This document shows, one piece after another, positions 39,981 through 46,050 of a DNA stretch of 64,000 nucleotides. The notes beneath the pieces are model-generated. The model was given only the letters and a program-made list of their open reading frames with translations. It was not told the origin of the DNA and ran no database searches. The DNA is taken from the NCBI RefSeq assembly GCF_004348545.1, contig NZ_SMKL01000002.1, positions 124,001 to 188,000 on the forward strand, given 5' to 3'. Position 1 is the first letter of the stretch; each line of letters begins with the position of its first letter. The translations under genes and the position numbers were made by a program. Source of the stretch: Jiangella ureilytica. GTDB taxonomy: Bacteria; Actinomycetota; Actinomycetes; Jiangellales; Jiangellaceae.

Positions 39981-40679
39981 GTGCCCGAGCCGACCATCCG
40001 CGTCCTCATCGCCGACGACCAGGCGCTGGTGCGGGGCGGCTTCGCGATGATCCTCGACGTGCAGCCCGACATCGCCGTCGTCGGTGAGGCCGACGACGGC
40101 GTACAGGCCGTCGCCGCCGCCCGCGAGCTGCGCCCCGACGTCGTGCTCATGGACGTCCGGATGCCGACCATGGACGGCATCGAGGCGACCACCGCGATCT
40201 GCCGCGAGACCGACGCCCGGGTGCTCGTGCTCACCACGTTCGACCTCGACGAGTACGTCTACGACGCGCTCCGGGCCGGCGCCAGCGGGTTCCTGCTCAA
40301 GGACATGCGCCGCGACGAGCTGGTCGAGGCGGTGCGCGTCGTCGCGTCGGGCGAGGCGCTGCTGGCGCCGTCGGTCACCCGGCGGCTCATCGCCGACGTC
40401 GTGGGCCGCGGCGGCCCGCCTCCGGGTGGCGGTCAGGGCGCCGCCGACGGGCGGCTGGACGTGCTGACGGCGCGGGAGACGCAGACGCTACGGCAGGTGG
40501 CGCGCGGGCTGTCGAACGCCGAGATCGCGGCCGAGCTGTTCGTCACCGAGCACACCGTCAAGACGCACGTCAGCAGCATGCTCAGCAAGCTCGGCCTGCG
40601 CGACCGCGTCCAGGCGGTCGTGCTCGCGTACGAGACCGGCCTGGTCACACCGGGCGATTCCACCGCCGCTGGCGCGTGA
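39981..40679 (+). CDS. NarL/LuxR-type response regulator
   Basis: A 232-residue DNA-binding regulator: receiver domain with the acidic pair ADD (11-13), phosphoacceptor Asp58 (VVLMDVRMP), conserved Thr (LVLTTFD) and Lys (FLLKD); C-terminal LuxR helix-turn-helix (LTARETQTLRQVARGLSNAEIAAELFVTEHTVKTHVSSMLSKLG). It is the partner of the upstream kinase. Its probable sites lie before the kinase gene and as a tandem pair before the MMPL gene. The stop codon lies inside the first copy of a 41-bp tandem duplication. Confidence 0.96.
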   Translation: MPEPTIRVLIADDQALVRGGFAMILDVQPDIAVVGEADDGVQAVAAARELRPDVVLMDVRMPTMDGIEATTAICRETDARVLVLTTFDLDEYVYDALRAGASGFLLKDMRRDELVEAVRVVASGEALLAPSVTRRLIADVVGRGGPPPGGGQGAADGRLDVLTARETQTLRQVARGLSNAEIAAELFVTEHTVKTHVSSMLSKLGLRDRVQAVVLAYETGLVTPGDSTAAGA

Positions 40680-40749
40680 CCTCGCCGGCCGGCCACCGGC
40701 CATCCCCCGCTGGCGCATGACCTCGCCGGCCGGCCACCGGGCATTCTCA
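40668..40749. repeat. 41-bp tandem duplication at the end of the response regulator gene
   Basis: Two units start with GCTGGCGC(G/A)TGACC at 40668 and 40709 and stay nearly identical for about 35 bp, including a GC-rich GCCGGCCGGCCACCGG segment. The first copy holds the TGA stop; the second is non-coding. The segment can also fold on itself and may contribute to termination. Confidence 0.75.
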
Positions 40750-43019: not shown

Positions 43020-43487
43020 ATGGAGAACTTCGTGAATCCTCGGCTGGCCCGCCTCGACGTGCTGGTGGGCGCCTGGGAGGTGACCTCGGCGATCGAGGGC
43101 CGGGTCATGAGCCGGGCCCGTTCCACGTTCCGCTGGCTCGACGCCGGCGGCTTCCTCGCCCAGCGGACCGATCCGCAGACCTACCTCGTCCCGGAGTGGC
43201 AGGGCGCGGCGCCGGAGTGGACCGAGACCGTCATCGGCCTCGACGACTACTCCGGCGCCTTCACCATGCTCCTCGCCGACGCGCGGGGTGTCTGCCGCAC
43301 CTACGGCATGGGCTTCGAGGACGGGCGGTGGACGCTCACCTCCCGTCCCGGTGAGGACTTCCACCAGCGCTTCGAGGGCACCGTCGCCGCTGACGGGACG
43401 ACGATCGACGGGCGCTGGGAGGCCTCGCCGGACGGCCGGACCTGGTCGACGGACTTCACCGTCGGCTATCGCCGCTTGGCGGACTGA
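43020..43487 (+). CDS. DUF1579-like small beta-barrel protein
   Basis: A 155-residue protein opening MENFVNPRLARLDVLVGAWEV, continuing with STFRWLDAGGFLAQRTD, ETVIGLDDYSGAFTMLLADARGVCRTYGM and a C-terminal TDFTVGYRRL. This is a lipocalin/DUF1579-like beta-barrel common in actinobacteria and of unknown ligand. ATG at 43020 fits the family start; ATG at 42987, overlapping the MMPL stop as ATGA, would add 11 residues and is an alternative coupled start. The stop codon is inside the left copy of the 24-bp direct repeat. Confidence 0.8.
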   Translation: MENFVNPRLARLDVLVGAWEVTSAIEGRVMSRARSTFRWLDAGGFLAQRTDPQTYLVPEWQGAAPEWTETVIGLDDYSGAFTMLLADARGVCRTYGMGFEDGRWTLTSRPGEDFHQRFEGTVAADGTTIDGRWEASPDGRTWSTDFTVGYRRLAD

Positions 43488-43506
43488 CCTCGCGGAGGCG
43501 GCGCTC
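43483..43506. repeat. Left copy of the perfect 24-bp direct repeat bounding the TA cassette
   Basis: The repeat starts ACTGACCTCG, ends GGCGGCGCTC, and is identical over 24 bp to 44477-44500. This copy holds the last bases and stop codon of the DUF1579-like gene; just after it the flank can form a small hairpin (43492-43509). Confidence 0.9.
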
Positions 43507-43618
43507 CGCCACCTTTGGACAAGCGTCTTCAGACCGACTTAGAATCGAACTCATGTACGGAGAAGAATCGCCTGTCAGCCAACCGGATTCCGCGAGCCCC
43601 CGGCGGTACTCTGCGAGT

Positions 43619-44173
43619 ATGGCAGTCTCGTCGCACGATGTCGCGGCAGCGCTACGCGCGCGGATACCCGGCCTGCCTACGAAGAAGCTCCACAAGCTCC
43701 TCTACTACTGCCAAGGCCACCACCTCGCCACGTTTGGTGAGCCGCTCTTCGAGGACCCGATCTCCGCCTGGGACATGGGACCGGTCGTCGGCACGCTCTG
43801 GTTCGCGGAGAAGCAGGGGACGCCCCCGTCGACGCGCACAGACCTTCCGGAAGGTGCGCTGAACACCATTGGCTACGTCGTCAGTCGATACGGCCGGCTC
43901 ACCGGCAGAGACCTTGAGCACCTGACGCACAGCGAGACGCCGTGGCAGCGCGCGGATGCACAACGCGAGCCGCACGGGAGCTTCCGTATCGAGCGGGCCT
44001 GGCTCGTGGAGTACTTCCAAGAAGGGGGTGCCGCCGACTCCGACGACGCTCCGCTCCTCGACACTGACGACGTGTCCCGTTGGCTGCAGAGCGCCCAGGC
44101 ACCGGCGAGTCCGCCGACCGGCGACGACTACGACGCACTGCAGACACGGCTTCACCAGTACCTGAATGGGTGA
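43619..44173 (+). CDS. Panacea (SocA-like) antitoxin-domain protein
   Basis: A 184-residue protein (206 if started at the ATG at 43553). The Panacea core is clear: LPTKKLHKLLYYCQGHHLATFGEPLFEDPISAWDMGPVV, with the later helical part ending in LQTRLHQYLNG. Panacea domains are promiscuous antitoxin domains that neutralise diverse toxins encoded beside them, and include the proteolysis-promoting SocA. Both starts look leaderless: TAGAAT (43540-43545, with TTGGAC at 43515-43520) ends 7 nt before 43553, and TACTCT ends 6 nt before 43619; family alignment favours 43619. The 3' end overlaps the partner gene by 8 bp. Codon use is less GC-biased than in its neighbours. Confidence 0.88.
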   Translation: MAVSSHDVAAALRARIPGLPTKKLHKLLYYCQGHHLATFGEPLFEDPISAWDMGPVVGTLWFAEKQGTPPSTRTDLPEGALNTIGYVVSRYGRLTGRDLEHLTHSETPWQRADAQREPHGSFRIERAWLVEYFQEGGAADSDDAPLLDTDDVSRWLQSAQAPASPPTGDDYDALQTRLHQYLNG

Positions 44174-44464
44174 CTCCGCTCGGCGGTGGACGCTGTCGAA
44201 CTTCATCGACGGACTCGACCGATGGATCGCTCTCGAGAACCCCGATGACGACCTGCGCGTGCATGTGACTGCGTGGGTGCTGACCAGGTCCGACGATCCC
44301 TACCAAGGCGTGCGTCGCGGCCCGGTTTCGACAACCTGTGGTACGGCGCGATTCCTGGGTCGATCCATCCACCCAGTTCCCTGGTGGTGTGTTCGTACTG
44401 GATCGAGGAGGCCCATCACTCGGTGAGGTGCGAGAGCTTCGCCACGTTGAGCATGCCGATCTGA
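44166..44464 (+). pseudogene. Frameshifted partner (putative toxin) of the Panacea antitoxin
   Basis: The frame opens at ATG 44166 inside the antitoxin gene and reads MGDSARRWTLSNFIDG, continuing to TAWVLTRSDDPYQGVRR. After about 44319 the sensible sequence moves to the next frame: PGFDNLWYGAIPGS, then VVCSYWIEEAHHSVRCESFATLSMPI and a stop at 44462-44464. One missing base near 44319-44320 explains this; restoring it would give a protein of about 99 residues. I do not recognise the fold. As sequenced, the frame yields an 86-residue product with an aberrant end, probably inactive. Position and overlap are those of a toxin gene. Confidence 0.7.
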
Positions 44465-44467
44465 GCG

Positions 44468-45715
44468 TCAAGGCTCACTGACCTCGCGGAGGCGGCGCTC
44501 GAGGAACCGCCGTTCGGGCTCGGTGCGGGCGACGGCGGCAGCCTCCCGATACGCCGTGGCCGCTTCGGCGGGCCGGCCGGAGCGGCGCAGCAGGTCGGCC
44601 CGGACGGCGGTCAGCGGCGGATAGTCGCCCAGGTCGCCCGCGACGTCGTCGAGCGCCGCCAGCCCGGCAGCCGGGCCGTCGCGGAAGCCGACGGCGACCG
44701 CGCGGTTCAGCGCCACCACGGGCGACGGGCGCAGCGCGAGCAGGGCGTCGTAGGCCGCCACGATCCGGGCCCAGTCGGTGTCGCGCGCGTGGGCGGCGGT
44801 CGAGTGCAGTGCCGCGATCTCGGCCTGCAGCCGGTAGTAGCCGGGCGCGCGGCCCGTGGCCCGGGCCGCGGACAGGGCGGCCAGTCCGGCCTCGATCCGG
44901 TCGTGGTCCCAGCGGCCGCGGTCCTGGTCCTCCAGGGTGACCAGCTCGCCGCCGGCGTCGGTGCGGGCGGCCCGGCGGGCGTGCTGCAGGAGCAGCAGGG
45001 CGTGCAGCCCGAGCGCCTCGTCGTCGTCCGGAAGCAACTGCGCGACCAGCCCGCTCAGTTGCACCGCCTCGGCCGCGAGGTCGTCGCGGAACGGCTCGCC
45101 CTCGGTGGCGGCGTAGCCCTCGGTGAAGATCAGGTAGACGACGGCGAGGACGGCGGCCGTGCGCTCGGCCAGCCGATGCGGCTCGGGCACCCGGAAGCCG
45201 ATGCCGGCGTGCTCGATCTTGTTCTTCGTGCGCAGCAGCCGCTGCCCCATGGTCGCCTCGCCGACCAGGAACGCCCGCGCGATCTGCCGCGTCGACAGCC
45301 CGCCCACCGACTTCAGCGTCAGCGCGACCCGCCCGGCCATCGGCAGCGCCGGGTGGCAGCAGGTGAACAGCAGCTTCAGCCGGTCGTCGCCGTAGGGGCC
45401 GGGCTCGTCGGCGGTGAGGTCGCGTTCCAGCTCGGCCAGTGCCTGCGCCTCGCGCAGCTTCGCCCGCTCCGTCTGCCGCCGCCGGAGCACGTCGTTGGCG
45501 CGGCGCCGGGCGATCGTCGTCAGCCAGGCGCCCGGGTTGGCCGGGACGCCGTCGGCGGGCCAGTGCTCCAGCGCCCGTTCGACGGCGTCCTGCAGGCAGT
45601 CCTCGGCCAGGTCGAAGTCGCCGGTGACCCGGATCAGCGCGGCGACGATGCGCACGCGCTCGGCGGCGACGGCGTCGGCCAGGGCCGCGCGGGCCGCGGC
45701 GCCGCCGTCGGTCAC
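44468..45715 (-). CDS. ECF42 sigma factor with TPR-like C-terminal extension
   Basis: A 415-residue sigma factor: region 2 at about 15-85 (EDCLQDAVERALEHWP), region 4 at about 115-180 (LSTRQIARAFLVGEATMGQRLLRTKNKI), then a long helical extension with TPR-like pairs (AAYDALLALRPSPVVALNRAVAV, AVRADLLRRSGRPAEAATAYREA). This is the ECF42 layout, in which the extension is needed for activity, and these factors sit next to DGPF (YCII) genes, as here. The GTG at 45715 overlaps the DGPF stop as GTGA. The last two codons and stop come from the inserted TA cassette. Confidence 0.94.
   Translation of the reverse strand: MTDGGAAARAALADAVAAERVRIVAALIRVTGDFDLAEDCLQDAVERALEHWPADGVPANPGAWLTTIARRRANDVLRRRQTERAKLREAQALAELERDLTADEPGPYGDDRLKLLFTCCHPALPMAGRVALTLKSVGGLSTRQIARAFLVGEATMGQRLLRTKNKIEHAGIGFRVPEPHRLAERTAAVLAVVYLIFTEGYAATEGEPFRDDLAAEAVQLSGLVAQLLPDDDEALGLHALLLLQHARRAARTDAGGELVTLEDQDRGRWDHDRIEAGLAALSAARATGRAPGYYRLQAEIAALHSTAAHARDTDWARIVAAYDALLALRPSPVVALNRAVAVGFRDGPAAGLAALDDVAGDLGDYPPLTAVRADLLRRSGRPAEAATAYREAAAVARTEPERRFLERRLREVSEP
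44477..44500. repeat. Right copy of the 24-bp direct repeat, within the ECF42 gene end
   Basis: Identical to 43483-43506. On the minus strand it encodes the residues ERRLREV plus the next two bases near the C-terminus of the ECF42 sigma factor; the last codons and stop of that gene (44468-44476) lie on the cassette side of the repeat. Confidence 0.9.
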
Positions 45716-46050
45716 CCGTCGAGGGGCCAGAACGGCCGCAGCTCGAGCCGTCCGGTGTAGGCCATGGAATGCTTCGACGCGATCTCGATCGCCTCGTCGA
45801 GGTCGGCGCACTCCAGCACGTCGAAGCCGACGACCCACTCGGCGGCCTCGGCGAACGGGCCGTCGGTGACCAGCAGCTCGCCGTCGCGCACGCGCACCGT
45901 CGTCGCCGCCGAGGCGGGGCGCAGCCGGTCGCCGATGACGTGCTTGCCGGCGCCGCTGACGTAGGCGAACCACTCCTCGATGTCCGGAGCGGCCTTCGCG
46001 TCGGCCTCGGTGTGGTCCGGGTCGGTGCAGACGAACATGAGGTACTTCAT
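45712..46050 (-). CDS. DGPF/YCII family protein
   Basis: A 112-residue ferredoxin-like-fold protein with the diagnostic DGPF motif (VTDGPFAEAAEWVVGF) and opening MKYLMFVCTDPD. The family has no firm biochemical role; members are partners of ECF42 sigma factors and are the usual targets of their regulation. AAGGAG lies about 8 nt before the ATG at 46050; an upstream in-frame start would run into the promoter. The stop overlaps the sigma gene start. Confidence 0.94.
   Translation of the reverse strand: MKYLMFVCTDPDHTEADAKAAPDIEEWFAYVSGAGKHVIGDRLRPASAATTVRVRDGELLVTDGPFAEAAEWVVGFDVLECADLDEAIEIASKHSMAYTGRLELRPFWPLDG

Follow-up and report, generated by a model that had tools for sequence, protein, structure and literature searches.

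Within the 64,000-nt stretch of Jiangella ureilytica contig NZ_SMKL01000002.1 analyzed here (the window, whose positions give all coordinates), a plus-strand segment of 970 bp (43507..44476) is bounded by two identical copies of the 24-mer ACTGACCTCGCGGAGGCGGCGCTC. The copies lie at 43483..43506 and 44477..44500, start 994 bp apart, and are the only two exact occurrences of this word in the window, in agreement with the perfect direct repeat reported in a preliminary description of the locus. When 246 control pairs of 60-bp flanks, likewise 994 bp apart and spread over the window, were compared, the longest word common to both flanks was 10 bp. The left copy is native target sequence and contains the stop codon of an intact plus-strand gene encoding 155 amino acids (43020..43487). 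The right copy forms the C-terminal coding end of a minus-strand ECF42-type sigma factor gene (44468..45718); the assignment of this gene, proposed earlier, is supported by matches to the Pfam domains Sigma70_r2, r4_2, and DUF6596. For the left-hand gene, the overlap of the repeat with the stop codon held, but the label "DUF1579-like" did not, since the protein had no Pfam-A match at E≤1. The current stop codon of the sigma factor gene comes from the insert: the protein now ends in EVSEP, whereas across the joined flanks it reads EVSPPSGDSRR before the stop. Both flanking genes retain complete reading frames, having been spared by the 24-bp duplication. The lower G+C content ascribed to the segment was borne out as well, with 64.4% in the insert versus 73.8% and 74.6% in the flanks.

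The insert contains little beyond a single operon, composed of a promoter, a Panacea antitoxin gene, and a gene for a partner protein of 98 amino acids. Its ends fit this operon tightly, lying 9 bp ahead of the -35 hexamer and 12 bp beyond the toxin stop codon. No convincing terminal inverted repeats were detected at the insert ends by eye and by repeat search, and none of the ORFs of the 970-bp insert encodes an integrase or recombinase.

Comparison with congeners provided a view of the locus lacking this operon. Orthologs of the ECF42-type gene (76 to 87% identity) were found in 10 of 11 congeners, and six of the 11 (L012, L013, L016, L017, L019, and L020) have the predicted empty site, at which the left-hand and ECF genes are convergent, touching or overlapping, and share a single copy of the 24-bp stretch. 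Joined across one repeat copy, the window flanks align without gaps to all six of these sites, and whole-neighborhood alignments with five congeners every time break at 43507 and 44476-44478, with an overlap of 24 to 26 bp. In the remaining four congeners with the ECF gene, the left-hand gene was not found beside it. In two congeners without the left-hand gene (L014 and L018), the ECF gene is followed at its end by long inverted repeats (AAGTTGATCTTGGAGT...ACTCCAAGATCAACT), which are probably terminators or a dispersed repeat. The Panacea gene is missing from the congeners searched, except for one 34% relative in a single congener. In about 90 indel comparisons of this neighborhood, covering six genomes, the next-longest direct repeat at an indel was 9 bp, and we therefore attribute the 24-bp repeat to target duplication in one insertion. 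The event is an insertion with target duplication, unusual for this neighborhood. Identity of the two repeat copies, while congeners diverge by about 10 to 15%, points to a recent insertion. Elsewhere in the window, just 3' of a gene end, a tandem duplication of imperfect copies, repeating about every 41 bp, occupies 40671-40740; it has a 23-bp exact core at 40677 and 40718 and is shorter or missing in some congeners.

The antitoxin gene (43619..44173, plus strand) encodes 184 amino acids from the conserved start. The product is SocA-like, and its assignment to the Panacea family, already made from the sequence, was confirmed by a match to PF13274 (E=5e-16, 60 bits versus a cut-off of 25.7). 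An alternative in-frame start, ATG 43553, would yield 206 amino acids, but it falls inside the SOS box described below, which makes ATG 43619 the likely start. One copy of the Panacea gene was found in the source genome. Our family sample comprised 24 actinobacterial relatives and three from a later search, giving 27 loci. The closest Panacea proteins found are 61% identical, and no donor was identified among 394 genomes of the class, in none of which a closer copy was seen. Plasmid and phage collections returned distant Panacea matches only, and two viral contigs hold 56% and 47% relatives, each with a partner gene. On the contig with the 56% relative (L192; 3001-3926 and 3980-5611), the pair adjoins a gene that by eye resembles a DNA adenine methyltransferase gene. 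In L057 and L097, the pair adjoins apparent CRISPR repeats (GTCCTCATCGC..CTACGAGGGATTGAAAC) upstream of the Panacea gene and also lies amid dispersed repeats, of which that genome has tens of copies.

The partner gene (44166..44464, plus strand), a putative toxin gene with a predicted RelE/HigB/ParE fold, overlaps the antitoxin stop codon, and its frame is broken at about 44319-44320. The preliminary description was right in calling it broken: its halves lie in different frames, and both match one intact 98-amino-acid protein of relatives. In nearly all related loci the partner is adjacent to or overlaps the Panacea gene, usually lying directly downstream with an overlap or a gap of a few bases, and the two-gene operon is conserved. 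The 98-amino-acid protein had no match in Pfam or NCBIfam and no informative match in defense and phage family libraries, and a toxin profile gave no significant match to PDB sequences. An AlphaFold2 model of the intact toxin of relative L049, computed from 20 sequences (pLDDT 92.7), shows the two helices followed by an antiparallel sheet that characterize the RelE-type fold. Its best structural matches were RelE/HigB/ParE toxins, with Z up to 10.1; Mycobacterium tuberculosis RelE1 and RelE2 matched with Z of 10.1 and 2.1-2.3 Å over 82 residues. From a predicted fold of this type, mRNA cleavage and gyrase inhibition cannot be told apart. The partner is intact in most relatives, but it is also damaged in L046, L047, L061, and L092, and toxin loss in this family is thus recurrent. 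Programmed frameshifting of the partner was rejected, as most relatives have one intact frame. The frameshift in the window might stem from an error in the draft assembly, which consists of 168 contigs. The L092 toxin (about 1355) carries an independent frameshift within about 10 bases of the position at which the window copy is broken, and this proximity may be coincidence or reflect a mutational hot spot.

Upstream of the antitoxin gene, a sigma-70-type promoter (TGGACA-18-TAGAAT, 10/12 matches; 43516..43545, plus strand) begins 9 bp inside the insert. It was the sole promoter-like site in the scanned stretch, with one found versus 0.1 expected. Abutting the -10 hexamer is a putative LexA/SOS box, TCGAACTCATGTACGG (43545..43560, plus strand), which has two mismatches to TCGAAC-N4-GTTCGA and fits the Streptomyces venezuelae consensus except for the last base. 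The LexA box of Streptomyces is tCGAAC-N4-GNNCGa (PMC9380542), and that of Mycobacterium is a palindrome of the type TCGAAC-N4-GTTCGA (PMC8607333). This palindrome is common to the upstream regions of the Panacea family: 8 of the 27 loci have it without mismatch, 7 with one, and 2 with two (17/27 with at most two), compared to a background of 0.013 per upstream region at this threshold, and in loci carrying the box it is mostly placed 58 bp ahead of the aligned start codon. The source genome contains three perfect LexA-type sites, one of them just upstream of imuA'-imuB, a classical SOS locus.

From these sites, the family of Panacea-RelE-fold operons is predicted to be under LexA (SOS) control, and the toxin-antitoxin operon is probably turned on by DNA damage; a point against this reading is that roughly one in three of the related loci is without the box. 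LexA would occupy the box next to the -10 hexamer and block initiation, keeping the operon repressed; upon DNA damage, LexA would be released and the operon expressed, with Panacea neutralizing the RelE-fold toxin through direct contact. The palindrome might instead be the system's own autoregulatory operator. Type II toxin-antitoxin systems often autoregulate, and the palindrome is extended in some loci. However, it agrees at every base with the LexA consensus known from Streptomyces and Mycobacterium, an identical site precedes imuA'-imuB in the source genome, and it is absent from about one-third of the related loci, all of which renders an autoregulatory role unlikely. A second TANNNT-like hexamer (window 43607-43618), six bases ahead of the start codon and conserved in the family, suggests that an additional promoter may give rise to a leaderless transcript. 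With its toxin gene frameshifted and its SOS box off consensus, the operon of the window is probably a relic undergoing decay, retaining an antitoxin at most.

Several known systems share parts of this architecture. PanAT systems combine Panacea/DUF4065 antitoxins with diverse toxins, ParE-like ones among those described (PMC8832971). As in these systems, the Panacea antitoxin of the window family directly adjoins a small toxin-like gene; unlike in these systems, no Pfam or NCBIfam model covers the partner, and the family has a predicted LexA box. The window operon shares the Panacea antitoxin domain with SocAB of Caulobacter, but its Panacea protein scored 34.7 bits versus the cut-off of 190 of the SocA equivalog model (NCBIfam NF047745), which places it far below equivalog level, and the partner in the window family has a predicted RelE fold. 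In Escherichia coli, the yafNO promoter carries a LexA box, and yafNO and dinJ-yafQ are SOS-linked modules of the RelE type (PMC2814082). The window family likewise links a predicted RelE-superfamily toxin to a predicted SOS response, albeit with an unrelated antitoxin, Panacea, and an actinobacterial box. The predicted toxin fold resembles M. tuberculosis RelBE1 and RelBE2 (structures 9g12 and 3g5o; Z 10.1, 82 residues), whereas sequence identity is about 11% and the type of antitoxin differs.

A second presence/absence difference was found in another genus. G031 carries a 928-bp segment with the pair that is missing in its congener G071 and also in G054; it extends from about 18 bp ahead of the SOS box to 2 bp beyond the toxin stop codon. 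The G071 flanks adjoin with an overlap of about 7 bp, at a site that is unrelated to that of the window and lacks the 24-mer. The difference may reflect either gain or loss. Although the window and G031 segments are both operon-tight, they have no terminal sequence in common outside the operon; the short word CCGCC(C)ACC, present at the left end of each, was dropped as likely chance in G+C-rich DNA. Comparison of G038 with G181 revealed a segment of 1.67 kb in which repeats surround the pair; it is not operon-tight. Except for an imperfect direct repeat in L051 (469 bp upstream and 180 bp downstream of the pair), none of the 24 related loci has a comparable flanking repeat clearly above the shuffled level. 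The best match to the 24-mer in related loci has five mismatches, and the viral contigs contain no exact match.

We consider, with moderate confidence, that the locus arose through illegitimate capture of a bare Panacea toxin-antitoxin operon, LexA-repressed and now decaying, accompanied by duplication of 24 bp of the target. The insertion resembles a single accidental event more than the action of a dedicated site-specific enzyme. Of the two routes offered in the preliminary description, site-specific or microhomology-driven insertion, the former did not hold up, and the microhomology or illegitimate part is favored. Break-repair capture is our best guess for the entry route, since the duplicated sequence is native, its length varies, ends and insertion site are not shared, and two Ku genes are present in the source genome. 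Operon DNA might have been captured illegitimately where the touching gene ends had suffered a staggered or resected break; fill-in with end joining, or template switching, would then have duplicated 24 bp of the target, leaving both neighbors usable and allowing the insertion to survive. Two points count against this scenario. A duplication of 24 bp is long for ordinary end-joining fill-in, and segments trimmed so closely to the operon in two genera could instead be a sign of a genuinely mobile cassette. That operon-sized pieces were retained may be due to selection favoring small inserts that do no harm where genes are dense, or to the benefit of a module that ensures its own retention.

If a transposase or Cas1-like integrase that acts in trans and makes long target duplications had moved a minimal non-autonomous element, this would account for the target duplication, the tight ends, and the occurrence of an operon-sized unit in two genera. 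Yet the window and G031 segments lack a common terminal sequence beyond the operon, the repeats at their junctions are unequal (24 versus about 7 bp), and a single Panacea gene copy was found in the genome, so we regard this route as decidedly improbable. We are slightly more skeptical of site-specific integration at ECF gene ends, by which a circular form with an identical 24-bp core would have been inserted by a recombinase acting in trans and the repeats would represent attL and attR. Like many att sites, the repeat does copy the 3' end of a gene exactly, and neither gene has lost its complete reading frame; such integration is nevertheless opposed by the 24 related loci without such a flanking repeat, the at least five mismatches to the 24-mer in related loci, the lack of an exact viral match, the second operon-tight case at another, unrelated site with an overlap of about 7 bp, and the lack of a recombinase gene in the insert. 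Ancestral presence with loss from all congeners is very hard to credit: recombination between the 24-bp repeats would generate exactly the empty site, but at least six congeners are empty with no remnant in any, the G+C content of the insert differs from that of its flanks, and the origin of the repeats themselves would still need explaining.

Beyond the single capture that we favor, it is a distant prospect that SOS-induced toxin-antitoxin operons move bare between actinobacterial chromosomes, from promoter to toxin stop (about 0.93 to 0.97 kb), by means of a trans-acting mobilizer that leaves duplications of variable length.

The locus offers a clean before-and-after view of how a toxin-antitoxin operon came to enter a chromosome, with the target duplication measured; usually, this step can only be inferred. 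The more interesting outcome is that Panacea systems with a predicted RelE-fold toxin form a family with predicted LexA control. Its conserved predicted LexA box ties Panacea systems to the actinobacterial DNA damage response; in its main text, the Panacea paper (PMC8832971) does not mention SOS or LexA. If SOS governs the operon and also the repair conditions under which stray DNA is captured, it is conceivable, as a speculation, that entry and expression of such operons have a common trigger.
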